Shown: in pieces, positions 209 to 23,645 of the stretch | Numbering within the stretch: position 1 is the stretch's first letter | Layout: every line of letters begins with the position of its first letter | IMG/VR virus record: IMGVR_UViG_3300042319_001862 | Location: 1 to 24,785 of that record | Strand: one strand, 5' to 3' | DNA from: a virus | DNA: 24,785 nt | Program-made: the position numbers and the translations under genes | Notes under the pieces: generated by a model | What the model saw: only the letters and a program-made list of their open reading frames with translations | Database searches by the model: none | Told to the model about the DNA's origin: nothing

Positions 209-1366
209 ATGAAATTAGGTTTAATTAGTGTTAATGAAATTGGTTTGTCTTTTGGATTGTTATGCGAAAAAAAAGGTCATGAAGTTTTAGTTTCAAATAG
301 TAATGATGATTATGTTTTTAATCTTAATCAAAACATATGTATTACAAATGAACCATTAATCCAATCTATGTTATTTGATACCACTAAATTTAGTGCAACA
401 ACAAGTAATGCAGAGGTAATTAAAAATTCCGACATTATTTTTATTTTTTCTCCAACCCCATCTAATATTGATGGTAATTATGACACAACAAAAGTTTTTG
501 ATGTTGTTTCAGAATTTTATAGTTTATCTTCTCAGAACTTTTCTCTTTATAATAAAAAAGTGGTAATATGTTCCACAACAAATCCTGGTGAAGTATCACA
601 AATACAAGAAAGATTAAACATGTTTAATATCCAAGTCGCATATAATCCATTTTTTACAAATGATGGTGAGATTGTAAAAGATATTGAAAATCATGAAATG
701 GTCTTAATTGGCGGAGAATATCAAGAACTAATAAATGATTTAATTAGTTTACACACCGAACTTAAAAAAGTTCTTGTTAATGTTTATACAATGTCATCAA
801 AGGCTGCCGAATTAACAAAAATTAGTATTAATTCATTTTTATCTGTAAAAATTACTTATGCCAACATGTTAGGTGAAATTATAACTAAATCAGGAGTTGA
901 AGATGAGGTTGATATGGTATTAACCGCAATTGGTGGTAATTCAGGAATTGGACAAAAACATATGAAATATGGTTTTGGGTATGGGGGTCCAACAATTAAT
1001 GGAGATAATAAATCGTTAAAACATTTCGCCAATAGTATTGACGCAAATACCGAATTAATTACAAGTGTTGATACATTCAACAAATCACACATTTCTTTTT
1101 TAAAAGAATATTATATTCAAAAAAATCCAAATAAAGAAGTACCATTTGTTATGAACCACATAACGTATAAGAAAGGTACTAATGTAATTGAGGAGTCACA
1201 ACAATTTCAATTATGTGTTGATTTATTAAATGAAGGCTATACATTAAACGTTATTGAAATAACTGAAGTTGCAGAAAAATTAACATCATTAAGTGAGTCG
1301 TATGATGGTCGGTTAAAGTTTTTTCCAATAGGTACAAAACCAGAAGGAATATTAATTAATTTATAA
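209..1366 (+). CDS. UDP-glucose/GDP-mannose dehydrogenase-family protein lacking the catalytic cysteine
   Basis: The 385-residue protein has the family layout: an N-terminal Rossmann domain, the central helix SKAAELTKISINSFLSVKI typical of nucleotide-sugar dehydrogenases, and a C-terminal domain. Family members oxidise the C6 alcohol of a UDP- or GDP-sugar to the acid with 2 NAD+, using a Cys in a G-x-G-F-G-G-S-C-F-P-K-D motif. Here the matching stretch is GFGYGGPTINGD, with Thr262 where Cys is expected and the Lys also lost. The NAD-binding GxGxxG is changed too, to SVNEIG at residues 7-12. The fold call is solid, but normal dehydrogenase activity is doubtful. It may bind a sugar nucleotide without oxidising it or catalyse something else. 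The ATG starts right after the upstream TAA, and the stop overlaps the next ATG by one base (TAATG). Confidence 0.8.
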   Translation: MKLGLISVNEIGLSFGLLCEKKGHEVLVSNSNDDYVFNLNQNICITNEPLIQSMLFDTTKFSATTSNAEVIKNSDIIFIFSPTPSNIDGNYDTTKVFDVVSEFYSLSSQNFSLYNKKVVICSTTNPGEVSQIQERLNMFNIQVAYNPFFTNDGEIVKDIENHEMVLIGGEYQELINDLISLHTELKKVLVNVYTMSSKAAELTKISINSFLSVKITYANMLGEIITKSGVEDEVDMVLTAIGGNSGIGQKHMKYGFGYGGPTINGDNKSLKHFANSIDANTELITSVDTFNKSHISFLKEYYIQKNPNKEVPFVMNHITYKKGTNVIEESQQFQLCVDLLNEGYTLNVIEITEVAEKLTSLSESYDGRLKFFPIGTKPEGILINL

Positions 1367-2085
1367 TGATAATCTTAACTACAACATATAACTGTGAGAA
1401 TTTTGTTGAGCGTTCTTTAATGACAATTATGACTCAAAGATTTAAGGACTTTAAATGTTATATAACTGATGACATGTCAACTGATAAAACTGTTGATATC
1501 ATTAAAAAAACCATATCGGGCGATAATAGGTTTATTCTTATTGAGAATAAACAAAAAATGTATCAACCAGGAAATTACGACCAAGTAATTCGTGGATTAG
1601 ATATTCCTGATTATGAAATATGTGTTGAGGTTGATGGTGACGATTGGTTACCAAATTCAAATGTGTTATCCTTCATAGATGATGTTTATAAAGACAAAAA
1701 TGTTTGGATGACAAGTGGTTCGTTTAAATATCATGATGGTAGGCCAGGGTTTGCAAATCCCCCTAAAAATTTTACAAACATTAGAAAACAAACTTTTACA
1801 CTATCACACATGAGAACATGGAAGTCTTGGTTATGGAAAAAAATTAAAGAAGAAGATTTAAAAGATGTTTCTGGAAATTATTGGAGTGTTGCGGGTGATT
1901 TATCATTTATGTTTCCAATGTTAGAAATGTCGGGAGAAAATCACTTTAGATATATACCAGATGTATTATACATATATAATGAGTCAAACCCATTAAATGA
2001 CCACAAAGTCAATATGAGTAAAGTAAGTTCAACCGTAAACATAATTAGAAATAAACCAAATTATAATTTATTAGAAAATGTCTGA
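1366..2085 (+). CDS. GT2-family glycosyltransferase
   Basis: This 239-residue protein is a GT-A fold transferase. It opens with MIILTTTYNCENFVERSL, the strand-loop-helix that starts GT2 enzymes. YITDDMSTDKT (around residues 32-42) matches the nucleotide-binding D-D-x-S-x-D segment. VDGDD (89-93) is the metal-binding DxD-type motif that holds the nucleotide diphosphate. GT2 enzymes move a sugar from an activated donor to a growing glycan or protein acceptor, usually in the cytoplasm. No membrane segment is seen, so it is predicted soluble. The start overlaps the previous stop by one base, and the end overlaps the next gene by 8 bases, so the genes are probably translationally coupled. The sugar and linkage cannot be read from the sequence. 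Confidence 0.85.
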   Translation: MIILTTTYNCENFVERSLMTIMTQRFKDFKCYITDDMSTDKTVDIIKKTISGDNRFILIENKQKMYQPGNYDQVIRGLDIPDYEICVEVDGDDWLPNSNVLSFIDDVYKDKNVWMTSGSFKYHDGRPGFANPPKNFTNIRKQTFTLSHMRTWKSWLWKKIKEEDLKDVSGNYWSVAGDLSFMFPMLEMSGENHFRYIPDVLYIYNESNPLNDHKVNMSKVSSTVNIIRNKPNYNLLENV

Positions 2086-2794
2086 AAACTTTAATCCAAA
2101 AATTTCAGTATGTATTCCATCATACGAAGCAAATGGTAGAGGTGTTGAATTTATTAATAAGAATATCCAATCAATTCTTTCTCAAACCTATAAAAATATG
2201 GAAATTGTTGTTTCCGACCATTCAAAAGATGATGTAATTGAAAATTACATTAAAGGATTGGGTTTGGATAATATAATGTATTTGAGGAATTTTGAGGACA
2301 TCGGATGGCCCGCACATAATACCAACAACGCAATTAAAAATTCTACAGGGGATTATATCAAATTAATGAATTTAGACGACTTTATGGTTGGTGAAAATTC
2401 AATTCAACTAATGGTTGATTTGTTGGGTGAAGGTAGTAAATGGGTTATCAGTGGATGTATCCATTACGATTATGGAACTGGTAGTTGGACAAATCCAATT
2501 ATTCCAAGGATTGAAGGTGATGGAAAACACTTAATTAAAGGTATTAATTTTGTTGGATGTCCGAGTGTTGGTTTAATACCTCGTGATGAATATTTTGACC
2601 CTGAAGTTTTATATATGATTGATTGTGAACTTTGGTATCGTATGTTTATCAAACATGGTTATCCTGGAGTTTTAAAAGATTATAGGATTGCTGTTGGAAT
2701 TGGTGACCATACATTGACCAGCCAATTATCATCAAAACATAGTGATTTACTTTATAAAGATATTGAGTATTGCAATAAAAAATTTTTAATATGA
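2078..2794 (+). CDS. GT2-family glycosyltransferase
   Basis: The 238-residue protein begins KISVCIPSYEANGRGVEFI, a standard GT2 N-terminus. SILSQTYKNMEIVVSDHS follows, where D47 is the likely nucleotide contact. GDYIKLMNLDD (residues 91-101) carries the DxD-like metal site as L-D-D. The length fits a single catalytic GT-A domain without a membrane anchor. It is the second of two adjacent GT2 genes that differ clearly from each other, so they probably add different residues of one glycan. The start at ATGTCTGA lies inside the end of the upstream gene, and its stop overlaps the following ATG (ATGA). The substrate is unknown. Confidence 0.83.
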   Translation: MSENFNPKISVCIPSYEANGRGVEFINKNIQSILSQTYKNMEIVVSDHSKDDVIENYIKGLGLDNIMYLRNFEDIGWPAHNTNNAIKNSTGDYIKLMNLDDFMVGENSIQLMVDLLGEGSKWVISGCIHYDYGTGSWTNPIIPRIEGDGKHLIKGINFVGCPSVGLIPRDEYFDPEVLYMIDCELWYRMFIKHGYPGVLKDYRIAVGIGDHTLTSQLSSKHSDLLYKDIEYCNKKFLI

Positions 2795-3951
2795 AAAATA
2801 TACAATTATTTGTCCCAAAATTTAGAAACGAAGAAATTTTTGAACATATGTCAACTTGTTTAGACAAGGGTTGGACAGGATTAGGGTTTAAAACCGTCGA
2901 AATTGAAAATGAATGGAAAACTTATACAAATTTACCTCACGCTCATTTCATTAACTCAAATACTTCAGGTCTTCATTTGGCGGTAAAAATATTGAAGGAC
3001 GCTAATAAATGGTCCGATGACGATGAAATCATTACAAGTCCATTAACATTTGTATCATCAAATCATGCAATAATGTATGAAAATTTAAAACCCGTATTCG
3101 CGGATGTGGATGAATATTTGTGTTTAGACCCATCATCAGTTGAATCAAAAATAACTAAAAAAACAAAAGCAGTTTTGTTTATTGGTATTGGTGGTAATAC
3201 TGGTGAACTTTATAAAATTATCGAATTATGTAAAAAACATAAGTTAAAGTTAATTTTAGACGCCGCTCACATGTCAGGTACATTTACAAAAAATCCATCA
3301 ACAGGTAAAGTTGAGCATATTGGTCATGGTGCCGATGTAACCGTGTTTAGTTTCCAAGCAGTTAAGAACTTACCGACTGCAGATTCAGGTATGATTTGTT
3401 TTGCAAATGAGGACTACGATACTTTAGTAAGAAAACTATCTTGGTTAGGTATTGATAAAGACACATACCAAAGAAGTAACGATAAAGGAAATTATAAATG
3501 GGAATACGACTTAGTTGATGTTGGTTACAAATACCACGGAAACTCAATAATGGCATCAATGGCATTAGTTGGTTTAAAATACCTTGACGAAGATAATGAC
3601 AGAAGACGAGAAATCTGTGAAAAATATGAAAACGAATTAACCAAACACGGAATTCAAACCATAAAGACACATAACGATTGTGTATTATCATCAAGACATT
3701 TATTTCAAATTGTTGTTAACCAACGAAATAAATTCATGGAATTATTAAATTCAAATGGAGTATATCCTGGAGTTCATTATAGAGATAACACCAATTATAA
3801 AATGTACAAACATGGATTTGGTACATGTCCAAATTCTTTAACAATATCTGAAAAATTAATAACCCTACCATTACATATGAATTTAACTGATGAGGATATT
3901 AACTATGTAATTGAACAAGTAATAAAAGTTAACCAACAAATAGAAGGATGA
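2791..3951 (+). CDS. DegT/DnrJ/EryC1/StrS-family sugar aminotransferase (lysine type)
   Basis: This 386-residue protein is a PLP-dependent type I-fold aminotransferase of the kind that aminates 4-keto-6-deoxy nucleotide sugars. Visible family features are NSNTSGLHLAV (cofactor phosphate loop), SPLTFVSS, LILDAAHMSG (Asp that pairs with the PLP ring nitrogen) and FSFQAVKNLPTADSGM. The Schiff-base Lys is Lys192, so it should be a true aminotransferase. GYKYHGNSIMASMALVGL matches the C-terminal substrate-site segment. Neighbouring Gmd (8077) would provide GDP-4-keto-6-deoxymannose, so a GDP-perosamine-synthase-like role is attractive but inferred. A dTDP- or UDP-sugar substrate made by host enzymes is equally possible. 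It overlaps both neighbours by ATGA and is coupled to an acyltransferase gene that could acylate the new amine. Confidence 0.88.
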   Translation: MKNIQLFVPKFRNEEIFEHMSTCLDKGWTGLGFKTVEIENEWKTYTNLPHAHFINSNTSGLHLAVKILKDANKWSDDDEIITSPLTFVSSNHAIMYENLKPVFADVDEYLCLDPSSVESKITKKTKAVLFIGIGGNTGELYKIIELCKKHKLKLILDAAHMSGTFTKNPSTGKVEHIGHGADVTVFSFQAVKNLPTADSGMICFANEDYDTLVRKLSWLGIDKDTYQRSNDKGNYKWEYDLVDVGYKYHGNSIMASMALVGLKYLDEDNDRRREICEKYENELTKHGIQTIKTHNDCVLSSRHLFQIVVNQRNKFMELLNSNGVYPGVHYRDNTNYKMYKHGFGTCPNSLTISEKLITLPLHMNLTDEDINYVIEQVIKVNQQIEG

Positions 3952-4589
3952 GTAGTATTGTAATTTTAGGTGCTGCAGGGCTTGCAAAAGAATTTTACTA
4001 TTATGTGAAAAGAGCAAAACCTGAAATAACTAATTTCATTTTTGTTAATGATTTAGATGATGGTCAAACATCGTTTGATATTGATGGTGAAGTATTTCCA
4101 GTAGTTAAAGATTGGTCATTTAAAGAAAACTATAAATTTATAGTTGCTGTTGGTAGTCCAAAAATAAAAAAAATTTTAGTTGTAAAGGCGTTATCATCAG
4201 GTTTAGTTCCATCTGAAACAATTGTTGACCCGTCAGCAATCGTATTAATGGATAGAAAAAATTTAGGGTATGGTGGTATTGTTTCACCAGGTTGTGTTGT
4301 CACTTCTAATGTTACGTTTGGTGACTATGTAACACTAAACTTAAATACTACGGTTGGTCACGATACAATTATTGGCGACTATTGCACCACAAATCCTGGT
4401 GTTCATATTTCAGGTCAAATAACCATGGGGTCTTCTAATGAATTTGGAACAGGGTGTATTGTTAGAGATAGATTAAACATTGGGTCAAATAAAACTTTTG
4501 GTGCTCAAACTGCGGTAGTTAAAAATATTTTGGGTGATGAACCTGAAGTATATGTTGGAATTCCATCTAAACTTTTAGTAAAAAAATAA
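3948..4589 (+). CDS. NeuD/PglD-like sugar O- or N-acyltransferase
   Basis: The 213-residue protein has the two-part NeuD/PglD layout. A Rossmann-like N-terminal sugar-nucleotide domain starts SSIVILGAAGLAKEF and includes FIVAVGSPKIKK. A left-handed beta-helix of hexapeptide repeats follows from about residue 92 to the end. VGHDTIIGDYC contains His138, the position of the general base in this family. Such enzymes transfer acetyl (or another acyl) from acyl-CoA to a sugar amine or hydroxyl. Its ATGA overlap with the aminotransferase gene suggests that the pair makes an N-acylated 4-amino-4,6-dideoxy sugar. O-acetylation of a finished sugar, as NeuD does on sialic acid, is the alternative. Confidence 0.85.
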   Translation: MSSIVILGAAGLAKEFYYYVKRAKPEITNFIFVNDLDDGQTSFDIDGEVFPVVKDWSFKENYKFIVAVGSPKIKKILVVKALSSGLVPSETIVDPSAIVLMDRKNLGYGGIVSPGCVVTSNVTFGDYVTLNLNTTVGHDTIIGDYCTTNPGVHISGQITMGSSNEFGTGCIVRDRLNIGSNKTFGAQTAVVKNILGDEPEVYVGIPSKLLVKK

Positions 4590-4606
4590 AATTAAAAATT
4601 CTTATT

Positions 4607-5224
4607 ATGGATAACGAAATTTCTTTCTCGATTGAGTCTATCAGTGCAGGTCACCACAAAGTATCTTATCGTGGTATTAAATTAATTAAAGACCCTTTTG
4701 ACTACTTATTATATCAAATGATAATTAATGAGGTTAAACCCGATTTAATTATTGAAATTGGTACTAACCATGGAGCATCAGCACTATACATGGCAGATAT
4801 GTTAGATTTATTGGGTAATGGCATGATTCATACTATGGATATAATGGAATATCCTATGGACCCGTTAATAGTTAACCACCCAAGAATTAAAAGATTTTTA
4901 GGCGGATTTATAGATTATGATTTAAAAAACGCTGAAGGTTACAATAACATATTGGTTATTGATGATGGGTCTCACTTATATAGTCATGTAAAAATGGCTA
5001 TGGATAAATTTAAAGATTTGGTTTCTGTCAATTCTTATTTTATTATTGAAGACGGGGCATTAAACCATATTGGTCTTGAAAAACAATACAGTGGTGGCCC
5101 ACTAAGAGCAATTGGTGAATTTTTACCCGATAACCCTAATTTCCAAATTGATAGAAAATGGTGCGATTTTTTTGGTAAAAACGCCACTTTCAATCCAAAT
5201 GGATATATTAAAAGATTATATTAA
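4607..5224 (+). CDS. CmcI-like class I SAM-dependent methyltransferase
   Basis: This 205-residue protein resembles the CmcI/rhamnosyl O-methyltransferase group. The lead-in YRGIKLIKDPFDYLLYQ is followed by PDLIIEIGTNHGASAL (residues 45-60), which is SAM motif I with the acidic residue at Glu50. ILVIDDGSHLYSHV (115-128) holds Asp/His residues typical of metal-dependent O-methyltransferases of this group. A role methylating a sugar hydroxyl on the glycan, or a precursor, would fit the surrounding genes. This is inference, since related proteins are also annotated as cephalosporin hydroxylases. A 17-base spacer separates it from the upstream gene. Its TAA shares one base with the next ATG. Confidence 0.75.
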   Translation: MDNEISFSIESISAGHHKVSYRGIKLIKDPFDYLLYQMIINEVKPDLIIEIGTNHGASALYMADMLDLLGNGMIHTMDIMEYPMDPLIVNHPRIKRFLGGFIDYDLKNAEGYNNILVIDDGSHLYSHVKMAMDKFKDLVSVNSYFIIEDGALNHIGLEKQYSGGPLRAIGEFLPDNPNFQIDRKWCDFFGKNATFNPNGYIKRLY

Positions 5225-6006
5225 TGAGTTTTGTATCTACAAAATTAATGGGTGGATTAGGAAATTATTTATTCCAAATATCCACAGCCTATTATTTATG
5301 TCTAAGAGATAATAAAGAATTGTTATGTGATGTATCAGATTCAAAGGTACCACATAAACCATATTCAAACTATACATCAAATATTTTTAGAAATGTTAAT
5401 TTTATTAATGGTGTTACTGATTTTACCCCATTAGGAGAAGGTGGATTTTCATATTTTCCATTACCTCAAATTGATGGTAATGTTAAATTATATGGATACT
5501 TTCAAAGTGAAAAATATTTCATGGACTATAGAAATGAAATATTAGAATTGTTTAAAATTGATGGTGAAACAAACCAAAAATTAATTAACAAATACGGTGA
5601 AGTATTAAAACGTGATACTTGTTCGATTCACGTTAGACGTGGGGATTATTTAGGTTTACAAAATTACCACCCAATCCAACCAATTGAATATTACCAAAAA
5701 GCAATTAATATTATTGGTAAAGAAAACCATTTCTTAATATTCTCTGACGACATTAAATGGTGTGAAGAAAATTTTAGTTTCTTAAAAAATAAAACATTTG
5801 TGTCCGACAATTTAGATTACGAAGATTTGTATTTGATGTCGATGTGTAATAATAATATATTGGCAAATTCAACATTCAGTTGGTGGGGAGCTTGGTTAAA
5901 TAAGAATAAAAATAAACAAGTTATAATTCCATCCAAATGGTTTGGAGTTTCCAATTTACATTTAAATACTAATGACTTATATTGCAATAAATGGATTAAA
6001 TTATGA
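5224..6006 (+). CDS. GT11-family alpha-1,2-fucosyltransferase-type enzyme (possibly colitosyltransferase)
   Basis: The 260-residue protein shows the whole GT11 signature. It has GGLGNYLFQIS at residues 10-20, the GDP-sugar-binding HVRRGDY at 136-142, FSDD at 173-176 and NSTFSWWGAW at 215-224. GT11 enzymes transfer L-fucose from GDP-L-fucose, usually in an alpha-1,2 linkage. Bacterial members in O-antigen clusters can use GDP-L-colitose (3-deoxyfucose). The next three genes would supply such a donor, and one of them is a ColD-like 3-dehydratase, so colitose is a credible alternative donor here. No transmembrane segment is seen, as in other bacterial GT11 proteins. It is joined to the next gene by an ATGA overlap. 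Confidence 0.92.
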   Translation: MSFVSTKLMGGLGNYLFQISTAYYLCLRDNKELLCDVSDSKVPHKPYSNYTSNIFRNVNFINGVTDFTPLGEGGFSYFPLPQIDGNVKLYGYFQSEKYFMDYRNEILELFKIDGETNQKLINKYGEVLKRDTCSIHVRRGDYLGLQNYHPIQPIEYYQKAINIIGKENHFLIFSDDIKWCEENFSFLKNKTFVSDNLDYEDLYLMSMCNNNILANSTFSWWGAWLNKNKNKQVIIPSKWFGVSNLHLNTNDLYCNKWIKL

Positions 6007-6926
6007 CAGTATTAGTTACAGGTTCAGATGGTTTAGTAGGTTCATCGTTAAAAAAACTTTTAGGTGATGGTCACGTATATCATACTCGTAAAGACGCCGA
6101 ATTAACCAATAGAGAACAAACATTAGATTATATTAATTATCACGTAAAACACAGTGGTGTTGACACAATAATTAATTGTGCGGCAAAGGTTGGTGGGGTG
6201 CAGGCCAACATGAAGAATAATAAAAAGTTTTTTATTGATAACTTTGTTTTAAATAACAATGTTATTGAAGCTTCATTTAAAAGTGAAATACCAAACTTTG
6301 TTAATATTTTATCAACGTGTATTTTTCCCGATAAAAATATTACATATCCTCTAACCGCAAATCAAATAGATTTAGGTCCACCACATTTTTCAAACCATGG
6401 ATATGCCTACGCAAAAAGATTGGCGGGTTATGAAATGAACATAGTTAAACAAGTGTTAAATTCAAATTGGGTTTCAGTTGTACCAACAAATGTTTATGGT
6501 CCATCAGACAATTTTCATTTAGAAGATGGTCATATGATTCCCGCAATGATTCATAGAGCATTTTTGGCAAATAAAAATAAAGAAAAGATGGTCGTTTGGG
6601 GTGATGGTTCGCCATTAAGACAAGTAATTTACTCAGAAGATTTGGCAAGATTAATTATTTGGTCATTAGATAATTGGAAAAATGATGAACCGTTTATGGC
6701 GATAAATCCAGATGAAATTACAATTTTAGAAATCGCAAAAGAAATTTGTAATAATTTTAATATATATGAAGATAATTTAATTTTTGATGATACAAAACCA
6801 AAAGGTCAACATAGAAAACCGGCATCATCAGACGCATTACCAGAATTTAAATTTACACCACTTTCCGAAGGGATTAAAGAATCGGTTAAGTGGTTTTTAA
6901 ACAATTACCCTAATATTAGAAAATAA
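6003..6926 (+). CDS. GDP-L-fucose / GDP-L-colitose synthase (3,5-epimerase/4-reductase family)
   Basis: This 307-residue short-chain dehydrogenase has the NADP-binding TGSDGLVGSSL near the N-terminus. INCAAKVGGVQANM is typical of GDP-fucose synthase. The active-site set is Ser104 and Cys106 in LSTCIFP, the Tyr134-x-x-x-Lys138 pair in YAYAK, and His177 in DGHMIP. In the GDP-fucose pathway Fcl epimerises and reduces GDP-4-keto-6-deoxymannose. The homologue ColC does the same to the 3-deoxy product of ColD to give GDP-L-colitose. The sequence alone does not separate Fcl from ColC. The ColD-like gene directly downstream leans the call towards ColC, though both are possible. Both ends overlap neighbouring genes. 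Confidence 0.9.
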   Translation: MTVLVTGSDGLVGSSLKKLLGDGHVYHTRKDAELTNREQTLDYINYHVKHSGVDTIINCAAKVGGVQANMKNNKKFFIDNFVLNNNVIEASFKSEIPNFVNILSTCIFPDKNITYPLTANQIDLGPPHFSNHGYAYAKRLAGYEMNIVKQVLNSNWVSVVPTNVYGPSDNFHLEDGHMIPAMIHRAFLANKNKEKMVVWGDGSPLRQVIYSEDLARLIIWSLDNWKNDEPFMAINPDEITILEIAKEICNNFNIYEDNLIFDDTKPKGQHRKPASSDALPEFKFTPLSEGIKESVKWFLNNYPNIRK

Positions 6927-8080
6927 TGAATAAAATTGATTTAGTTAAAGACACTATTAATAGTGAAGACATTGAAAAATTAATCTCTTGGTTACAAACA
7001 AATCCAAGATTAACTAAAGGTGAGCTCACAATTGAATTTGAAAAAGAATGGTCAAAATGGCTTGGTAAAAAATATTCTGTATTTGTGAATTCAGGTTCGT
7101 CCGCAAATTTAGCAGCTGTTTATGGATTATTGTTATCGGGTAAATTAAGAAATAATAAAATTGTTGTTCCGTCAGTTTCATGGGTTACAACCGTAACACC
7201 ATCAATTCAATTTGGCATGGAACCAATTATGTGTGAATGTGATGAAGATAATTTAGGGTTAAATATTAACCACTTAAAACAAATTATTAAAGAACACGAC
7301 CCATCTAGTATTATTTTAGTTCACGTTTTAGGGTTTCCAAATCATATGAATGAAATATTGGAATTGTGTAAAGAACATGATATTAAATTAATTGAAGATA
7401 CTTGTGAATCAATTGGTTCTAAATATGAAGGAAATAAAGTTGGGACTTTTGGTGATTTATCGACATTCTCATTTTACTTTGGTCACCATATGTCCACAAT
7501 TGAGGGTGGCATGATTTCAACTGATGATGAAGATTTATACCATATTTTATTATCAATTCGGTCACATGGGTGGGATAGAGATTTACCTAAAACAAAACAA
7601 ATTGAATTACGCGAAAAATATAATATTGGGGATTTTCGTTCTCTTTACACTTTTTATTATCCAGGATTTAATTTAAGGGCGACAGATTTACAAGCGTTTA
7701 TTGGTTTACAACAATTAACCAAATTGGATAAAATTGTAGAAAACCGATATAAAAATTATATGAAATATCATGAGGAGATTAAGAATCCTGAATGGAAAAT
7801 AAATCCCCCTAACGATAGTTATATTTCAAATTTTTCATATCCAATAATTACTAAAAATATTAAACAATTGGTTGAAAAATTAACTGAAAATAATATTGAA
7901 TGTAGGCCATTAATTTGTGGTTCAATCAATGAACACCCATTTTGGTATGAAAAATATGGAAAACAAGATTTACCAATTTCTAAAAGAGTTCATGAATATG
8001 GGTTATATCTTCCAAATAATCATCAAATGACTGAGGATGAAATTAATAAAGTAATATCAGTAGTTAATCAGTATATATGA
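6926..8080 (+). CDS. colD: ColD-like GDP-4-keto-6-deoxymannose 3-dehydratase (His in place of PLP lysine)
   Basis: The 384-residue protein belongs to the DegT aminotransferase superfamily. At the PLP-lysine position it has His, in SFYFGHHMSTIEGGM, with His187 aligning to the lysine without a gap. Replacement of Lys by His is the hallmark of sugar 3-dehydratases such as ColD and the CDP-sugar enzyme RfbH. Other ColD-like stretches are DDEDLYHILLSIRSHGW and the C-terminal IECRPLICGS, both close to what I recall of E. coli ColD. ColD uses PLP and glutamate to remove the 3-hydroxyl of GDP-4-keto-6-deoxymannose, the step that commits it to colitose. The neighbours Gmd (downstream) and the Fcl/ColC-type reductase (upstream) complete the route. 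It overlaps both genes. The symbol is given by similarity only. Confidence 0.85.
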   Translation: MNKIDLVKDTINSEDIEKLISWLQTNPRLTKGELTIEFEKEWSKWLGKKYSVFVNSGSSANLAAVYGLLLSGKLRNNKIVVPSVSWVTTVTPSIQFGMEPIMCECDEDNLGLNINHLKQIIKEHDPSSIILVHVLGFPNHMNEILELCKEHDIKLIEDTCESIGSKYEGNKVGTFGDLSTFSFYFGHHMSTIEGGMISTDDEDLYHILLSIRSHGWDRDLPKTKQIELREKYNIGDFRSLYTFYYPGFNLRATDLQAFIGLQQLTKLDKIVENRYKNYMKYHEEIKNPEWKINPPNDSYISNFSYPIITKNIKQLVEKLTENNIECRPLICGSINEHPFWYEKYGKQDLPISKRVHEYGLYLPNNHQMTEDEINKVISVVNQYI

Positions 8081-9051
8081 AAAAAGCACTAATCACAGGT
8101 ATAAATGGACAAGATGGTTCATATTTAGCGGAATTTTTAATTAATAAAGGATATGAGGTGTTTGGCACATTAAAACGTAATTCAGTTGCCGAAAATCAAA
8201 CTGCAAGATTAGATTCAGTATATGATAAAGTAAAATTATTTTATGCCGATTTAACAGATTTGTCTTCATTAATATCTGTAATACAAAAAACACAACCAGA
8301 CGAAATTTATAATTTGGCCGCCCAATCACATGTAAGAATTTCATTTGACCAACCAATTTACACTGCACAAGTTACTGGTGTCGGCACATTAAATATGTTA
8401 GAAGCCGTTAGGTTAATTAAACCCGATGCTAAAATTTACCAAGCGTCGTCATCCGAAATGTTTGGTAATTCTATTGATTCTGATGGATTTCAAAGAGAAA
8501 CGACATCAATGAATCCTGTTTCACCTTACGGATGTGCTAAAGTGTATTCGTATAATATTTGTAAAAACTATAGAAACTCATATGACATGTTTATTTCTAA
8601 TGGTATTTTATTTAATCACGAATCACCAAGACGAGGGACAAATTTTGTAACTAATAAAGTTGTTAAAGAAGCGGTTAAAATTAAATTAGGATTATCTAAC
8701 AAATTGGCATTAGGTAATTTAGATGCCACAAGAGATTGGGGACATGCTAAAGATTATGTTGAGGCGATGTGGATGATATTACAACTTGAAACTCCGAATG
8801 ATTATGTATGTTCTACAGGAGTATCTCACACAGTTAAAGAATTGTGTGAATATGTTTTTAGAAAATTAGATTTGTCATACCAAGACTATATTGTTTTGGA
8901 TGAAAAATTTTTAAGGCCTGAAGAATTAAACGATTTAAAAGGAGACAACTCAAAACTTAAAAAACATACTGGTTGGGAACCAACATATACTTTTGAATCA
9001 ATGCTTGATGAAATGATTGATTATTGGTTAAAGTACTACAGTAAAAAATAA
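8077..9051 (+). CDS. gmd: GDP-mannose 4,6-dehydratase
   Basis: This 324-residue extended SDR enzyme begins ALITGINGQDGSYLAEFL, the Gmd form of the cofactor-binding GxxGxxG (residues 8-14). It contains YNLAAQSHVRISFDQP, the substrate loop YQASSSEMFG, Tyr151-x-x-x-Lys155 in SPYGCAK, and FNHESPRRG, all diagnostic of GDP-mannose 4,6-dehydratase. It converts GDP-D-mannose to GDP-4-keto-6-deoxymannose, the branch point for GDP-fucose, GDP-colitose, GDP-perosamine and GDP-rhamnose. Length is slightly below the 340-370 of many bacterial Gmd proteins, with no missing motif. It is the last gene of the coupled glycan run. A 17-base gap follows. Confidence 0.95.
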   Translation: MKKALITGINGQDGSYLAEFLINKGYEVFGTLKRNSVAENQTARLDSVYDKVKLFYADLTDLSSLISVIQKTQPDEIYNLAAQSHVRISFDQPIYTAQVTGVGTLNMLEAVRLIKPDAKIYQASSSEMFGNSIDSDGFQRETTSMNPVSPYGCAKVYSYNICKNYRNSYDMFISNGILFNHESPRRGTNFVTNKVVKEAVKIKLGLSNKLALGNLDATRDWGHAKDYVEAMWMILQLETPNDYVCSTGVSHTVKELCEYVFRKLDLSYQDYIVLDEKFLRPEELNDLKGDNSKLKKHTGWEPTYTFESMLDEMIDYWLKYYSKK

Positions 9052-9068
9052 AATTTTAAATTAAAATA

Positions 9069-9818
9069 ATGGCAACAAAACCAACTAGAAAATCACCGAC
9101 ACCAACACCACTATCAGAAGAAAGAAGTTCAAGAACAAAAAAAGAAATTATTTGTTCAATCATAAAAAGAAAAACTAAAGAAAAGTTTTTAACCCAAACT
9201 CAAAAAAGTTATTACGATGTTTTGACATCAAGTGAGGTAACTATTTGTTCAGGGCCAGCAGGTGTAGGTAAAAGTTATATTACAATGAAAGCAGCAATTG
9301 ATTTATTGTCAGACCCAAATACACCTTATGAAAAAATTATTATTGTGAGACCCGCAGTTGAAGCTGAAGAAAAATTGGGTAGTTTACCTGGAAATGTAGA
9401 AGAAAAATTAGACCCTTATATATTTCCATCTTATTATTTGTTAAATAAAATTATTGGAAAAGAAACCAGAGAAAAATTAAAAGAACTTGAAGTTATTGAA
9501 GTTTTTGCTTTGGCATTTATGAGGGGTATGAATATTGACAATTCAATATTAATATTTGAAGAAGGTCAAAATGCAACACCAAGTCAAATGAAACTTCTAT
9601 TAACAAGGATTGGATTTAATAGTAAGTTCTTTATTTCTGGAGATGTTGAACAATCTGATAGATATAAAAACAAAACGCACAGTGGTTTATGGGACGCTAT
9701 TGAAAAATTTAGAGATTCTAATCACATTTCCACTTTTGAATTTAAAGATAAAAAAGACATAGTTAGAAATCCTTTGATTAGTAAGATTTTAGACAAATAC
9801 GATAACGAAACAGAATGA
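9069..9818 (+). CDS. PhoH-like P-loop ATPase
   Basis: The 249-residue protein has a low-complexity basic N-terminus (residues 1-40) followed by a PhoH domain. The Walker A is GPAGVGKS (62-69). VRPAVEAEEKLGSLPGN is the PhoH-specific segment, and the Walker B-like LIFEEGQNATPSQMK begins at residue 161. FISGDVEQSD corresponds to the family's sensor region. PhoH-like genes are frequent in marine T4-like phages. Their role is unresolved, with RNA-related ATPase activity and phosphate-stress links proposed. The usual Walker B Asp-Glu is Glu-Glu here. It overlaps the next gene by ATGA, suggesting joint expression with the degenerate HAD protein. Confidence 0.9.
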   Translation: MATKPTRKSPTPTPLSEERSSRTKKEIICSIIKRKTKEKFLTQTQKSYYDVLTSSEVTICSGPAGVGKSYITMKAAIDLLSDPNTPYEKIIIVRPAVEAEEKLGSLPGNVEEKLDPYIFPSYYLLNKIIGKETREKLKELEVIEVFALAFMRGMNIDNSILIFEEGQNATPSQMKLLLTRIGFNSKFFISGDVEQSDRYKNKTHSGLWDAIEKFRDSNHISTFEFKDKKDIVRNPLISKILDKYDNETE

Positions 9819-10686: not shown

Positions 10687-11739
10687 ATGGAATTATCTTT
10701 AAACGAAAAAGTAAAACAATCAATTCAAAATTTAAAAAATAAAAAATCGAGAATATATTTCTTAGTACAAGATACTAAGGGAAACGCGAAAGCATCGGTT
10801 AGATTAATTTATCAGACAGCAAAAGTTCTTTTAGATTCCGGATTTAACCCTATCATTCTTCATGAAAAAAATGACTACTCAGGCGTAGTTGCTTGGATGG
10901 ATGAAGAATATATGTTAATCCCGCATAAATCAATTGAGGGTCAAAATTTAGAAATTTCTCCTGAAGATTTTATTGTTGTACCTGAAATTTTTGGTTTTAT
11001 TATGGAACAAATTAAAAATTTACCTTGTGGTAAAATTGTTTTAACTCAAAATTATTCTAATATTGTTGAAACATTACAACCAGGACAAAGCTGGTCCCAA
11101 TACGGATTTTTTAAGTGTATTACAACTAGTAAACAACAACAAGAATATATTGAAAACGTAATGAGACAAACTAGTTTTGATATAATTAAACCTTTAATTA
11201 CGGATAGTTTTTATCCAAAACTTTTACCACCGATGCCAATTATTGGTGTTCACACTAAAGAACAAGAAGATACTATTAATATAATTAAAACTTTTTATTT
11301 AAAATTCCCACAATACAGATGGTTCACATTTAGGGATTTAAGAGGTCTTTCTGAAAAAGAATTTTCAAATTCGTTACGTGATTGTTTTGTTAGTGTATGG
11401 ATAGACGAAAAAAGCGGATTTGGTACATTTCCATTAGAATCTATGTCATCAGGAGTACCAGTAATTGGTAAAATACCTAATATGAGACCTGAATGGATGA
11501 CTGAAGATAACGGTGTTTGGATTACAGACCCAACAATGATTTGTGATTTTATCGCAGACTTTATTCAAAATTGGTTGGAGGATAACATCAAACCTGAACT
11601 TTACGAAAATATGAAAAAAACAACCGAAAATTACACAAATAAACAAGAATTTGATTCTACAGTTACCTCACTATTTCAAGAGTATTTAAACATAAGAGCA
11701 AATTCATTTGAAGAACAAATATCTAAAACCGAAGAATAA
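10687..11739 (+). CDS. GT-B fold glycosyltransferase (GT4-like)
   Basis: The 350-residue protein has the two-Rossmann GT-B plan. The N-terminal half reads IYFLVQDTKGNAKASVRL then a helix and IILHEKND. The C-terminal half contains VSVWIDEKSGFGTFPLES and MSSGVPVIGKIPN (to about residue 265), the donor-nucleotide site of GT4-like enzymes. Glu251 matches the second Glu of the E-x7-E motif, while the first is not conserved at the expected spacing. The protein seems soluble. It is followed by a GT2 gene, so the two form a second, separate glycosyltransferase pair next to the late sigma factor. Virion glycosylation is one possibility and host glycan change another. The junctions at both ends are TAA-T-ATG. 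Confidence 0.75.
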   Translation: MELSLNEKVKQSIQNLKNKKSRIYFLVQDTKGNAKASVRLIYQTAKVLLDSGFNPIILHEKNDYSGVVAWMDEEYMLIPHKSIEGQNLEISPEDFIVVPEIFGFIMEQIKNLPCGKIVLTQNYSNIVETLQPGQSWSQYGFFKCITTSKQQQEYIENVMRQTSFDIIKPLITDSFYPKLLPPMPIIGVHTKEQEDTINIIKTFYLKFPQYRWFTFRDLRGLSEKEFSNSLRDCFVSVWIDEKSGFGTFPLESMSSGVPVIGKIPNMRPEWMTEDNGVWITDPTMICDFIADFIQNWLEDNIKPELYENMKKTTENYTNKQEFDSTVTSLFQEYLNIRANSFEEQISKTEE

Positions 11740-13677: not shown

Positions 13678-15777
13678 ATGCCGACTCCTGACTTAAACCA
13701 AGGACAAATTGAAGTTAAAAATAAAATTTCAGCAATTAAAAACTTTGCTCAAGTTTCTAATTCTGAAAAAAAATTAAAGAGAAGTGCGGGTAATTCAGAA
13801 TCACAAGGAATCCCTGATATTGCTTCTAGTCTTGATAACGCATCAAAAGACCAAAAAAGATATTTAAAACCTCCACCAAATTCTTTTGACCAAGTATTGG
13901 AGATGATAGGTTTAACTAGTGGTAATGGTTCTGAAACTTTAAAATATTTAAAAAAAAAATTATTGTTAACGGCTACTAAAATAGAGCCTGAAATTAAAAA
14001 AATCATAACTAAAAACGCTATAAAGGCTTTAGGTTGTTCTCAAGAACAAACATTTCAAGGATTTACTTCCACTTTTTTAGAGCTTAATCCTTTGAATACA
14101 CTTCCAGTAGGTCAAGGAATATATGTTCCAATTGAATCTATGGATATTTCAGGAATGTTAAAAACTACAACAGATTCAAAAATAGGTAAAGTAGTTTATG
14201 AAAAACCTAACCCAAATGTGATTGAGAACGTATATAAACCTTATAAAGGAAAAGTCCCGTTCCCAATGAATAAAGAATTTAATAACAGATTACAGGGAAC
14301 ATTTGTCACAGATTCATTTAATGGTGAATATGGTAAATATTATCAAGGGGTGTCAAACCAAAACTTATTTGATTTTCAATATAGCCCAACAAACCAATTT
14401 GGTGTTGACCAAGCGTGTTTTAAAGTCGCTTTAATATCCAAAGTTAACGAATCATTAACTATAACCGGTGGCTCAGCAAATAAAGTTATTGATTTTTTAG
14501 AAGATTATTACGGAACAATTAAACTTTTTGATACTACTGACTTTACCGCAGTTATGATGAATGCTGTGTCAGGTGCAATAAATATTAAAGCAAATCTTAC
14601 CTCAGATGAGATTAGCAAACAATCACAATTTATGTTAATTCTTCAGAGAATATTAGGTCTTTGTTTTGACTCAAGAAGAGAAATTGACGTTAGTGGTGTT
14701 TCAAAAATTGCTGAGTTAGATGGTGTTGATGAATCATTTTTTGAACTTACTGAAATTGATTTAAGAAATATTGATGTACAAATTAGTAATATACAAAATG
14801 GTGTTATGGAACTTGTTGATTGTGATAACGTAAAAGTTCCTGTTGATTATGAAACAATAATTGATGGATTAATTGACCTTAGAGAAACCGAAAATTTATC
14901 TTCAGCATTAGAAGTTAATAAAATTATTGCGATTAGTGATTCTTTAGTTCAAAATCCTGATTGGAAAGTCCTTTTACCAACAAATTTAAATTTGCAAGTT
15001 TTTGATGAAGATTTTATAAAAAAAATCCCGTTATCCGTTGCTGGAGCAGTTTTAAGCCCAAAAGTTTTATTCCCAATTTTTGTTTTAATGCAGTCACTTG
15101 AATCCAATGCAACAAATTCTTTTAATTCTGCGGTAACATCAGCAAACACTTTTATTCAAAGTGCTAATACTATTGGTAATTCGGTTAATAATCTTATTAA
15201 TAGTAACGTTGATTTTTTAAAAACTTTTAAAAAATTTAATATAGAAATGGTTGCGGAAATTGGGGCCATTTTTGTAACCGAACTTTTTAATATATTAAAA
15301 AAAGATTTAATTAATCTTATGAGACCAATTATCACAGATATTGGAAGTGAAGCATTAAAAGCCAAACTGCAAATGATAGAAAGATTAATTACTATTGCTT
15401 TAATTATTAATCAAATTGTAATAGGGGTTAAGGATTACAAAAAATGCAAATCTTTAATTGACGATATTTTAATAATACTAAATTTAATAAGCTCTTTGGC
15501 TCCTCCGGGAAGTAAAATACCTAAAGTATTATTATTATTGGCAAATTTTTTGCCTGGAACGTCAGCTTCAAGGGCAAGTATTAATACAATAGAAGAACTA
15601 CAAAAACTTGGAATACCTACAGGTACTTTACCTGATGGTTCACCAAATTTAATGTTATTATTTAACTTAGCATCTAATAAAGCAACAAAAAAAGAATCCG
15701 CCCAAAATGGAAAGATTCAAGCTATTGGAATTAGTGCTGACGGTAAACCGGTTCGGATTAGTGGAAAATCTACATAA
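13678..15777 (+). CDS. Large probable virion protein with hydrophobic C-terminal region
   Basis: This 699-residue protein matches no family that I can name. The first 100 residues are polar and basic. Around 120-270 there is an aromatic, Gly/Asn-rich stretch (SPTNQFGVDQACFKVALISK). From about residue 519 to 630 the protein turns hydrophobic, with segments near 523-540, 570-584 (LITIALIINQIVIGV), 593-607 and 617-626 that look membrane-active or like packed amphipathic helices. Its place between the late sigma factor and a gp5-like baseplate gene, its size and the lack of catalytic motifs suggest a structural tail or baseplate part, perhaps one contacting the host membrane. No signal peptide is seen. 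The TAA-T-ATG junction couples it to a 68-residue protein. Confidence 0.6.
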   Translation: MPTPDLNQGQIEVKNKISAIKNFAQVSNSEKKLKRSAGNSESQGIPDIASSLDNASKDQKRYLKPPPNSFDQVLEMIGLTSGNGSETLKYLKKKLLLTATKIEPEIKKIITKNAIKALGCSQEQTFQGFTSTFLELNPLNTLPVGQGIYVPIESMDISGMLKTTTDSKIGKVVYEKPNPNVIENVYKPYKGKVPFPMNKEFNNRLQGTFVTDSFNGEYGKYYQGVSNQNLFDFQYSPTNQFGVDQACFKVALISKVNESLTITGGSANKVIDFLEDYYGTIKLFDTTDFTAVMMNAVSGAINIKANLTSDEISKQSQFMLILQRILGLCFDSRREIDVSGVSKIAELDGVDESFFELTEIDLRNIDVQISNIQNGVMELVDCDNVKVPVDYETIIDGLIDLRETENLSSALEVNKIIAISDSLVQNPDWKVLLPTNLNLQVFDEDFIKKIPLSVAGAVLSPKVLFPIFVLMQSLESNATNSFNSAVTSANTFIQSANTIGNSVNNLINSNVDFLKTFKKFNIEMVAEIGAIFVTELFNILKKDLINLMRPIITDIGSEALKAKLQMIERLITIALIINQIVIGVKDYKKCKSLIDDILIILNLISSLAPPGSKIPKVLLLLANFLPGTSASRASINTIEELQKLGIPTGTLPDGSPNLMLLFNLASNKATKKESAQNGKIQAIGISADGKPVRISGKST

Positions 15778-15778
15778 T

Positions 15779-15985
15779 ATGACAAAAGAAGAATTTGAAA
15801 ACATTTTAAATTTACAAAACAATTTAAAAGAATTACCTAATACAAAATTAATTGAGGTTATGGATAAACTAACTGTCACGTTTGATTTAACTAAAGAAAA
15901 TGTAATTAGTTTAACGATATATTTAGATAAACTTGAAGAGTTATATAATAATACCCTTAAAGAATATCAATCTAGAAAGTTATAA
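15779..15985 (+). CDS. Small helical protein, unknown
   Basis: A 68-residue protein starting MTKEEFENILNLQNNLKELP, acidic and helical throughout, with no Cys or membrane segment. I start it at 15779, one base after the upstream stop. The longer frame from 15707 would lie mainly inside the previous gene. A TAA-T-ATG junction and 2 bases to the next gene place it in a tight late operon. Size and position between two large virion genes would suit a small chaperone or a minor structural protein, but this is inferred only from position. Confidence 0.65.
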   Translation: MTKEEFENILNLQNNLKELPNTKLIEVMDKLTVTFDLTKENVISLTIYLDKLEELYNNTLKEYQSRKL

Positions 15986-15987
15986 AC

Positions 15988-21854: not shown

Positions 21855-23645
21855 TTATCTCAATTCTCTTAAATCAAATGTACGAACGCCATCTACGGTA
21901 ATTCTTCCGTAAAAACGATTATTTACAATTTTCTTCGCGTATCTTGTCATTATTCCTTTAATCGGAGTAAAGTTGAACGGATTATACATTGTAGGTGTTA
22001 ATTGTAGAGGTACATACGGTGCGTAAATATAACCTGTGTCTAACAATGATGTTCCTTTGTGTCCCATTAACACTTGGTTAGCTGGGAAGTAAGGGTCACG
22101 GTAAACTTGGTAACGACCCGCTAATGTACCAACTCTTTCAATACCCATGTTGTATTGGTCTTGCTCAGGAGCCGCGTTTGATACGTGGAAGTATTCCAAG
22201 TCATCAAATATAGCACTGATTTCAGAAGAAACAACAATCCAGTTAGCTCCACCTCTTAAGGTAGATTTGTGGATTTGAGCCGAAATTTGGTTGATAGCTG
22301 TAATCAATGTTTGATTCCAGTCTTTTTGAGTGTAAGGAACTGCACTTGAACCTAGACGTTTCCAACCATTGTAATCCCAACGTAAGTTCCAAGCCGCACC
22401 TTTACGTAAATCTCTTAAGATTTCACGGTCGATTTCAGCCGCAACTTGTTCAGATAATAAAGCCGTTAATTCAGCTTCAGCATCAATGTTGTGGAACGCA
22501 GCAACGTCTTGTGCCATTTCTGGAGACCATTGAGCTCTTAATTTTCTTTCTGTTACAGAAACTGTAACTGACATAAGGTCAAAAGATACCTCACCAATTT
22601 TATCTTCAAATTCTAAATTCTTATATATTCTATAAGTAGATGTAAACGCATTGTTAACAGCTGTACTAGAAGAGAATGTTGAACCTGTGTAACCGTCCAT
22701 AGAACCACCACAAGTAATACATACTGGTACCTGTAAATCAATTTCTAAATAGATTTTACCTTCAGTATCACACAGATTGTCATATTGACCACCACCTGTT
22801 TTACTACCAGGGAAAGTTAATGTATCGTTGTTGTTACCGTATTGAACAATACCTTTACCATATCTTTGAGTTACTACTCTGAATAAGTAAGGATTAGATG
22901 TGTTAGCCGAAGTTGTTGTGTTTCCAGCAGCACCATAGACAGTCAAATCAGATAAGAAAGATTCGTTATCCATTGGTTGACCATCAGGTCCAATTAATTT
23001 ACCAGCTCCATCAGATGCAAAACCTGACAAAACTACCAATACTTTTCTGTAATCAGATGAAGTATAAGCTGAAGCAACTAATGCGTCAGCTAACCAAGCA
23101 ACAGTAGCAACATCAGCAGTGATTGCGGAAAATTGTCCTTTAGAATAGTCAAATAACCCTGGAGGGTCTAACGCTGGTTCGTTACCTTCGTAGAATCTAT
23201 CGTAAAGGTCTTTAGTATTGTTATAGTCATAACCGCTGTTTGGTGTTTGACCCACAGCTTGGTTTGGTGAACCATAAGGTGCGTAGTGCTCAGAAGTACC
23301 TGGTTGGTAAGCCTGAATGTTAGGTACAAAGTAGAATAATTTACCGATTGGTAAGTTCATTGCTTGTACTGAAACGATGTCATTCGCTAATAATTTAGAG
23401 AATACACGTCTAACAATTGGGAAAACCACTGTTTCAAATGCACCTGTATCAGATGTAGATGATGCTTCATTGATTAAGAATGATGCTTGGTTTTCGTATA
23501 ATTGTGCTACGTTTTCTCTCATGTGACCTTTAAGACCCTCTAAGAATCCTAATTTGTCCCATTTGTTGATTGTGTCTTCTTTGATAACTTTAAGGTGTTT
23601 TAACCCAATGTTACCAACAAGACCTGATTCTAATAATGCTCCCAT
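21855..23645 (-). CDS. T4 gp23-like major capsid protein
   Basis: The 596-residue protein matches T4-type gp23. The best stretches are GAFETVVFPIVRRVFSKLLA followed by NDIVSVQAMNLPIGKLFYF (residues ~67-105), the core of the HK97-fold shell protein of this group. The C-terminal end (FYGRITVDGVRTFDLREL) is also of this kind. An N-terminal propeptide is expected, and FLINE at 56-60 followed by Ala61 fits cleavage by the prohead protease (T4 gp23 is cut after Glu65). The region is visibly richer in G+C and in C-ending codons than its neighbours, as often seen for highly expressed capsid genes. Its terminator is at 21810-21833, and the scaffold gene lies 36 bases upstream. Confidence 0.95.
   Translation of the reverse strand: MGALLESGLVGNIGLKHLKVIKEDTINKWDKLGFLEGLKGHMRENVAQLYENQASFLINEASSTSDTGAFETVVFPIVRRVFSKLLANDIVSVQAMNLPIGKLFYFVPNIQAYQPGTSEHYAPYGSPNQAVGQTPNSGYDYNNTKDLYDRFYEGNEPALDPPGLFDYSKGQFSAITADVATVAWLADALVASAYTSSDYRKVLVVLSGFASDGAGKLIGPDGQPMDNESFLSDLTVYGAAGNTTTSANTSNPYLFRVVTQRYGKGIVQYGNNNDTLTFPGSKTGGGQYDNLCDTEGKIYLEIDLQVPVCITCGGSMDGYTGSTFSSSTAVNNAFTSTYRIYKNLEFEDKIGEVSFDLMSVTVSVTERKLRAQWSPEMAQDVAAFHNIDAEAELTALLSEQVAAEIDREILRDLRKGAAWNLRWDYNGWKRLGSSAVPYTQKDWNQTLITAINQISAQIHKSTLRGGANWIVVSSEISAIFDDLEYFHVSNAAPEQDQYNMGIERVGTLAGRYQVYRDPYFPANQVLMGHKGTSLLDTGYIYAPYVPLQLTPTMYNPFNFTPIKGIMTRYAKKIVNNRFYGRITVDGVRTFDLRELR

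Follow-up and report, generated by a model that had tools for sequence, protein, structure and literature searches.

Gmd-, ColD- and Fcl-type steps are known from E. coli and Yersinia. In E. coli O55 we take the genes gmd, colD and colC to encode the enzymes of the same names (Gmd, ColD and ColC), of which ColD and ColC are labelled in RefSeq as a DegT aminotransferase and a GDP-L-fucose synthase family protein, respectively. A further dehydratase, E1 (RfbH), holds a [2Fe-2S] in a cysteine-rich stretch. The papers covered here assign the sugar-nucleotide genes of phages to GDP-fucose, rhamnose or, generically, LPS, and the available text on cyanophage S-SCSM1 describes its Gmd and GDP-L-fucose synthase as cell-wall modification genes (PMC9602691). 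In the open-access literature, covered by titles and abstract openings and with subscription journals mostly outside it, we found no paper on a phage-encoded colitose pathway. This agrees with an earlier note on this DNA, which knew of no such pathway, but phages with the same trio of genes are already in GenBank under other names.

Organization of the sugar module

The window, the whole 24.8 kb stretch of viral DNA that was analysed, contains three ORFs at positions 6003-6926, 6926-8080 and 8077-9051, all on the + strand and starting with ATG. They overlap by 1 and 4 bases, so that the three enzyme genes adjoin with overlapping ends, as the earlier note had described. That note named a Gmd, a ColD-like and an Fcl-type enzyme, and Pfam confirms the three families, but the order runs Fcl, ColD, Gmd and not Gmd first. 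The first gene (6003..6926, 307 aa; Pfam Epimerase, E 4.5e-37) encodes a GDP-4-keto-6-deoxy-sugar epimerase/4-reductase of the Fcl/ColC family, a proposed GDP-L-colitose synthase; the second (6926..8080, 384 aa; DegT_DnrJ_EryC1, E 4.5e-75) a ColD-like PLP-fold 3-dehydratase in which His187 replaces the catalytic Lys; and the third (8077..9051, 324 aa; GDP_Man_Dehyd, E 7.5e-119) Gmd.

Immediately upstream, and overlapping the Fcl-like gene by 4 bases, lies a gene for a GT11-family glycosyltransferase (5224..6006, +; Glyco_transf_11, E 2.5e-28), a candidate fucosyl- or colitosyltransferase that shares 28% identity with its GT11 counterpart in the O-antigen cluster of E. coli O55. A GT11 gene is found directly 5' of the window-type Fcl in 7 of the 13 records holding that Fcl, and in one fragment besides. 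The GT11 protein had no meaningful match in the PDB that would point to its acceptor. The same run includes, further upstream, a Lys-type DegT aminotransferase, ArnB/PseC-like and outside the colitose steps (2791..3951, +; best PDB match ArnB, 142 bits), with K at the catalytic column of the alignment, followed as context by a NeuD/PglD-like sugar acetyltransferase (3948..4589, +; TIGR03570, E 1.5e-37, under its cut-off) and an RMNT/CmcI-type O-methyltransferase (4607..5224, +; PF04989, E 1.2e-32).

The downstream edge of this variable module is marked by a PhoH-like gene (9069..9818, +; PHROG 170, E 2.9e-66), a gene that follows the module in many relatives but not in loci L006-L008. Further downstream are a group 1 glycosyltransferase (10687..11739, +; PF00534, E 3.1e-6) and a second glycosyltransferase ending at 12547 (PF00535, E 1e-6), both present wherever a window-clade locus extends to this point. 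The protein at 12547 has a weak likeness to a late sigma factor and found no match in the phage collection.

Proposed pathway

Gene order, enzyme families, catalytic residues, tree position and conservation in phages were all observed directly, and we consider it probable that the three genes lead, as a branch, from the GDP-mannose of the host to GDP-L-colitose. GDP-colitose would be the most economical product of the trio. In the substrate order that we infer, Gmd would convert GDP-mannose of the host to GDP-4-keto-6-deoxymannose, the His-type ColD would remove the 3-hydroxyl with pyridoxamine phosphate and glutamate, and the Fcl-like enzyme would carry out the C5 epimerisation and the C4 reduction with NADPH. 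The product of the overlapping GT11 gene, whose specificity is likewise predicted, would then probably attach this sugar to an acceptor of the infected cell, most likely a virion or surface glycan, and the biological role of the pathway may lie on either the virion or the host surface.

Gmd is 45% identical to its E. coli O55 counterpart, scores 390.8 bits against TIGR01472, just below the curated cut-off of 415, and keeps S125, E127, Y151 and K155, presumably the Thr/Ser-Glu-Tyr-Lys active site. The best solved relative of the Fcl-like protein is the human-type GDP-L-fucose synthase 4e5y (236 bits, E 3.6e-69). The protein retains S104, C106, Y134, K138 and H177, of which we take S104-Y134-K138 to be the Ser-Tyr-Lys triad and C106 and H177 the epimerisation residues, by WcaG numbering. 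Its best NCBIfam family gives 188 bits against a curated cut-off of 500, and the ColD-like protein reaches 227 bits for RfbH, its best family, where the cut-off is 423; that all three enzymes fall below the cut-off of their best NCBIfam family counts against the colitose reading.

The predicted dehydratase

In the alignment, H187 of the window protein falls at H188 of E. coli O55 ColD, and the PDB chains of the ColD mutants H188N and H188K show N and K at that same column, which bears out the His-for-Lys exchange reported earlier. Both sequence and predicted model place the middle protein, among solved relatives, nearest to ColD: the PDB scores are 225 bits for ColD (2gms), 144 for E1 and 126 for perosamine synthase, and the corresponding Z values of the model are 44.2-45.0, 42.8 and 42.0. 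In a quick tree with SH-aLRT support only, which included one characterised ColD (ColD_O55, on a long branch), the ColD side (94 rows) received 98 and the E1 group stood apart with 98.

Two other readings of this protein were rejected. Against an E1/RfbH dehydratase stand the lower score (144 against 225 bits) and the missing cysteines, the cysteine stretch of E1 (3bcx) having no Cys counterpart in the aligned window protein. Against an ordinary aminotransferase stand His187, the scores, the model and the tree. That it should make GDP-perosamine in this way is scarcely credible to us: the protein does belong to the DegT family and perosamine synthase is among its structural matches (Z 42.0), but ColD is ahead of perosamine synthase by 100 bits and His replaces the catalytic Lys in every one of the 73 viral forms. 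Placement among true aminotransferases, the outcome that the earlier note had named as speaking against its proposal, was not what the tree returned, since the seven Lys-type rows form a separate clade (support 100) with the window protein and ColD opposite. The reading as a His-type dehydratase thus came through alignment, score, model and tree.

The gene before colD

The gene preceding colD is exchangeable among related phages, a feature that is new here. Of 42 related records (near-copies counted), 13 have the window-type reductase and 16 a short SDR, never both; the counts for this slot are lower bounds for the known types (locus L193 was scored empty though the SDR sits just before its colD). 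Between two close relatives the single gene before colD is replaced, with homologous flanks on either side, and four other phages carry a Lys-type aminotransferase in the slot, the one compared being perosamine-synthase-like. The short SDR keeps the Thr-Glu-Tyr-Lys residues of Gmd, and with Z of 22 to 24 its model is roughly as close to Gmd as to RMD and to UDP-sugar 4-epimerases; from context we infer that it is a reductase. SDR-ColD pairs also occur in several loci without gmd within the 4 kb fetched per side, for which the Gmd of the host is one possible source.

At the same position beside ColD stands the short SDR in some of these 42 records and the window-type Fcl in others, in no case both, so the likeliest substrate of Fcl is what ColD produces. 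Its identity is 31% to O55 ColC and 30% to E. coli WcaG, so, being equally far from both and nearest to the human-type GDP-fucose synthase, it may instead make GDP-fucose. In the sequence we found nothing by which the window Fcl could be told to be a colitose rather than a GDP-fucose synthase, and we know of no diagnostic residue that tells ColC from the latter. Of the colitose pathway claimed earlier, the assigned enzymes and the His-type reading of the dehydratase hold up in the tests made, but the product is less firm, as sequence cannot tell the two synthases apart and relatives vary the slot.

It is unlikely, though worth weighing, that two branches share Gmd. In one, Fcl and GT11 would make and transfer fucose; in the other, a phage or host enzyme would turn what ColD produces into another 3,6-dideoxyhexose. 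The window Fcl resembles GDP-fucose synthases, GT11 (the window's Glyco_transf_11 match) is best known as a fucosyltransferase family, and relatives with ColD and Gmd use the short SDR, 10 of 16 such records having a separate Fcl of another type as well. Against this, Fcl and SDR sit at the same place, one replacing the other as a single gene, and no short SDR was found in any of the 13 window-type-Fcl records, three of which are 112-215 kb long (two of these near-copies). Two further points weigh against the colitose reading: Fcl is not directly beside ColD in 5 of the 13 Fcl loci of the tree set, and the window is a fragment, so a second reductase may lie elsewhere in its genome.

Beyond the colitose reading itself, we advance tentatively, as somewhat less than an even chance, that a Gmd-ColD core is combined with a swappable finisher. 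Fcl would lead to GDP-L-colitose, the short Gmd/RMD-like SDR to a GDP-3,6-dideoxy-D-hexose (tyvelose-type) and the perosamine-synthase-like aminotransferase to GDP-3-deoxyperosamine, a one-gene swap changing the sugar of virion or host. To our knowledge the tyvelose-type compound is not known as a GDP sugar, and no paper on 3-deoxyperosamine was found in the open-access literature. If such a swap alters the decorating sugar, phages could change their surface chemistry by single-gene recombination.

Distribution among phages and bacteria

The catalytic His is kept in all 73 non-redundant viral ColDs, and in one scan 525 of the 599 viral stretches among those listed encode ColD relatives, with the His checked in the best only; dehydratases of the ColD kind thus appear to be common in viral contigs. 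Every one of the 13 records that have the window-type Fcl also holds a Gmd of at least 72% identity. Nor is the trio unique to the window: it is also present in the complete cyanophage genomes ACG-2014f and S-CAM7, in a ColD clade of the tree separate from the window's. In cyanophage records the dehydratase is named aminotransferase or hypothetical protein. Among bacterial ColD relatives, 23 of 80 have both gmd and fcl in the fetched stretch (up to 6 kb per side); the 57 without the pair, which include the two nearest, are a point against the colitose reading.

These loci bear on a further alternative, quite improbable in our judgement, in which the protein, though a His-type dehydratase, acts on a different nucleotide sugar or has drifted in activity, and its neighbourhood with Gmd and Fcl is loose. 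Its identity to O55 ColD is only 34%, ColD_O55 branches outside the phage forms and most bacterial forms, and many bacterial and several viral relatives (51-61% identity) lack gmd in the stretch fetched. However, of the 43 window-clade loci (near-copies counted), 38 have Gmd adjoining ColD or one gene off (the others being L011, L039, L042, L043 and L061), and the trio is kept in two separate phage clades.

Phage type and host

The T4-like label given earlier is backed by a T4 gp23-like major head protein (21855..23645, -; PHROG 138, 224 bits). A Bacteroidota host, also proposed then, is only suggested: Shine-Dalgarno-like motifs are scarce, but phages of different origin are similarly close in the head protein, with 44.5% identity to an uncultured 484 kb phage, 41.9% to a Flavobacterium phage and 41.8% to a Microcystis phage. 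With gene starts chosen mechanically and expectations obtained by shuffling, such motifs precede 0 of 23 window genes (0.2 expected), and 6 of 92 in five kin loci (4.8), which resembles the 1 of 32 in a Flavobacterium phage (0.8) and 2 of 52 in four Bacteroidota loci (1.1). By contrast, the values are 16 of 67 for three cyanophage loci (9.1), 28 of 68 for four cyanophage-like viral loci (11.0) and 21 of 39 for E. coli (9.8).

The window Fcl has matches in 260 of 296 genomes from the phylum of Flavobacterium sp. genome G058 (the source of L100), none of the listed matches exceeding 37% identity, and in 28 of 30 ColD-bearing genomes, at no more than 35% over long stretches and up to 40% in short weak ones. 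Because these identities are low, no host or recent donor was found by Fcl sequence among the two sets of genomes. Flavobacterium phage matches were set aside as distant (22%, E 4e-11 in the one record tested).

Comparison with known systems

That this 3,6-dideoxyhexose-type dehydratase is so common in viral contigs suggests that phages put rare sugars to a chemically specific use. With an exchangeable finishing gene, phages differing by one gene should make different sugars, and such differences would tell decoration of virions from alteration of the host surface.

The GDP-L-colitose pathway of E. coli O55 has the three enzyme families and the catalytic His in common with the window, its reductase gene likewise lies directly before and overlaps the dehydratase gene, and its O-antigen cluster holds a GT11 gene. 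It differs in being bacterial and in having gmd about 10 kb away rather than adjacent; in contrast to O55, no genes for GDP-mannose synthesis, flippase or polymerase were found among the window genes given to Pfam. The CDP-6-deoxy-glucoseen E1 dehydratase (RfbH) is also a His-type 3-dehydratase of the DegT fold, but it scores 144 bits against 225 and its cysteine-rich stretch is unmatched in the window protein. Cyanophage S-SCSM1, as far as the available text goes, shares a phage-encoded Gmd and GDP-L-fucose synthase, whereas the words aminotransferase and colitose are absent from its main text (PMC9602691). The Synechococcus phages ACG-2014f and S-CAM7 (the latter with a Synechococcus host on record) have gmd, fcl, a colD of the His type and a GT11-like gene in a single run, for which RefSeq gives the names nucleotide-sugar epimerases, aminotransferase and glycosyltransferase; unlike the window, they have the order gmd-fcl-colD-GT11, and their ColD is about 36% identical to that of the window.

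Gene order and identity of the ColD-like protein

The region from 209 to 9051 of the window, a viral record of 24,785 bases, is filled by plus-strand genes, nearly all overlapping, that encode, in order, a nucleotide-sugar dehydrogenase-like protein, two GT2 glycosyltransferases, a Lys-type DegT aminotransferase, a NeuD-like acetyltransferase, a CmcI-type methyltransferase, a GT11 protein (5224-6006), and the Fcl-like (6003-6926), ColD-like (6926-8080) and Gmd (8077-9051) proteins. The overlaps among the final four genes are 4, 1 and 4 bases; the last two are those of the Fcl, ColD and gmd trio, which indeed lies side by side with overlapping ends, as the earlier note described. Downstream of the run there is a PhoH gene, followed by two more glycosyltransferase genes, and a T4-type head protein gene is located at 21855-23645. 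The gene upstream of the latter on the same strand (23682-24749) has a product in which acidic repeats stand in tandem (DEQDDEDGFNEFNM). By eye, the proteins of 19299-19760 and 20510-21577 have in common a peptide like MKxIxLTExDLxRIxKxVxxEQ, N-terminal in one and internal in the other, possibly a tag for targeting or cleavage.

In the PDB, E. coli ColD is the best match of the ColD-like protein (384 aa), at 225 bits, ahead of E1, an RfbH-type His dehydratase (144 bits), a putative NDP-4-keto-6-deoxyglucose-3-dehydratase (9wvy; 130 bits) and perosamine synthase (126 bits). In the alignment, its H187 stands opposite H188 of the E. coli O55 ColD, a reference taken from the chromosome whose start matches the 2gms chain, and this bears out the proposed replacement of the catalytic Lys by His. 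The structures closest to its AlphaFold2 model (pLDDT 87.8, least certain at residues 189-191, just past the histidines) are ColD entries, with Z from 44.2 to 45.0 and 32-33% identity, compared with 42.8 for E1 and 42.5 and below for aminotransferases. The related loci L003-L150 contain 151 DegT-family ORFs that are 330 aa or longer, with His at the catalytic column in 144 and Lys in 7, a proportion that is no survey, since ColD-like patterns were used to fetch the loci.

Phylogeny of the dehydratases

In a quick tree of 106 rows, where the O55 ColD has a long branch, one clade (100*) holds all seven Lys-type rows, namely the window DegT, ArnB and five from the loci, and three E1-like viral proteins and a single bacterial one group with E1 (98*). 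A place among true aminotransferases, which the earlier note had named as a refutation, is not what the tree gives: the window ColD lies outside the Lys-type clade, together with the O55 ColD and all other forms (98*). The clade around it comprises 26 rows, exclusively viral (97*); the cyanophage ColDs and their kin make up another viral clade, with 13 rows (98*), and the ColD of the huge phage LR756502 is sister to an Elusimicrobia protein (99*). Viruses have thus acquired ColD-type genes more than once. The 642 kb LR756502 (L066) carries Fcl-ColD at 7068-9167 and a second, E1-like dehydratase at 15682-16842; a Gmd search of the whole record gave a weak match only (28%, E 1.9e-9).

Fcl and Gmd enzymes

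The window Fcl retains S104, C106, Y134, K138 and H177, and the window Gmd retains S125, E127, Y151 and K155. In an Fcl alignment of 57 viral and 34 bacterial rows, near-copies counted in, the Cys, Tyr and Lys are present in all, the Ser in 55/57 and 31/34, and the His in 57/57 and 33/34, respectively. Because the Gmd, ColD and Fcl families are represented with their catalytic residues, each step of the predicted colitose pathway has a plausible enzyme in the window. The closest solved protein to the window Fcl is a human-type GDP-fucose synthase, and its identity is 31% to the O55 ColC and 30% to WcaG, the E. coli fucose synthase. The complete GDP-colitose set proposed earlier stands in having a candidate for every step; as for its end product, colitose and fucose synthases are indistinguishable from the Fcl sequence.

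The gene preceding colD is exchangeable

In 73 non-redundant loci, the position just before colD holds an Fcl (23 loci), a short SDR of ~260 aa (21), a longer SDR (3), a Lys-type DegT (4), a Gmd-like SDR (1) or a gene of another kind (19). No such gene was found within 90 bases of colD in 2/73, and in one of these two loci, L193, a translated search reveals the SDR in that position. A small protein (~115-130 aa) recurs there in L199, L200, L204, L217, L223, L225, L227 and L230, and in L020 (6892-7239) it precedes the SDR rather than colD; for those of L020 and L217, the two given to Pfam, the DUF4254 match is weak and below cut-off.

In 42 whole records, a count that contains near-copies such as L015 and L016, a close relative of the window Fcl (at least 69% identity) is present in 13 and the short SDR (at least 45%) in 16, and the two occur together in none (0/42). 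A 17th SDR record has just the SDR end, at the record edge. Another type of Fcl (42-48%) is also present in 10 of the 16 SDR records, and no Fcl was found in the other 6, including contigs of 269 kb and 95 kb. Five of the 13 Fcl loci in the ColD tree described below have their Fcl away from colD: in L009, L012, L013 and L014 between one and three genes resembling glycosyltransferases or methyltransferases intervene, and in L010 a one-gene-length gap.

A careful ColD tree of 13 Fcl and 12 SDR loci implies five state changes, of which starred branches force three or more; in it L005, with an SDR, nests with L003 and L004, both with an Fcl, next to the window. The DNA of L004 (14-11227) and L005 (6114-17138) is homologous (77%) up to roughly where the preceding gene ends, breaks over the Fcl (L004) or the short SDR (L005) alone, and resumes just before colD for 9 kb (77%). 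This is a single clean gene replacement, in either direction, and it gives the strongest argument for the window Fcl and ColD working together.

The short SDR is a divergent Gmd relative (PDB E 7e-7 using a profile) whose model (pLDDT 89.3) has an extended-SDR fold about equidistant from Gmd, RMD and UDP-sugar 4-epimerases. We infer that it would reduce the ColD product without C5 epimerisation, giving a D-series 3,6-dideoxyhexose. The Lys-type DegTs of L228, L231, L233 and L238 occupy the position before colD, at about 2960-4010; that of L231, the only one compared with PDB, scored 227 bits with a sugar aminotransferase, 222 with perosamine synthase and 92 with ColD. GDP-3-deoxyperosamine is bound in one perosamine synthase structure (3dr7) and is thus within chemical reach. 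ColD paired with such a DegT could make it.

Distribution and comparison with known systems

An initial scan of viral contigs found 63 loci; in a second, by alignment, relatives were encoded in at least 525 of 599 stretches, of which the best 80 were kept. After removal of near-copies, the catalytic His is present in 73/73 viral ColDs, a comparison that takes in ACG-2014f, S-CAM7 and LR756502. In the stretches fetched around 80 bacterial ColD relatives, a strong gmd is present in 29, an fcl in 34 and both in 23. Searches of an open-access library turned up no publication describing a colitose or ColD gene in a phage.

In 7 of 13 records a GT11 gene stands directly before the window-type Fcl, and in one more case this position holds a GT11 fragment with a stop (G016:C1:18821-18970), perhaps a decaying copy. 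Virion decoration and host-surface change are both possible roles of the predicted sugar; the glycosyltransferase genes conserved downstream of the module would lean slightly towards the virion.

In the complete genomes of the Synechococcus phages ACG-2014f (NC_026927) and S-CAM7 (NC_031927), as in the window, a single run holds gmd, fcl, colD and a GT11-like gene. RefSeq names these genes nucleotide-sugar epimerases, aminotransferase and glycosyltransferase, so that ColD is labelled an aminotransferase despite its His-type active site; the GenBank copies are "hypothetical protein", with two S-CAM7 records as putative CDP-4-keto-6-deoxy-D-glucose-3-dehydrase. The O-antigen cluster of E. coli O55 contains a GT11 gene as well, which encodes the colitosyltransferase.
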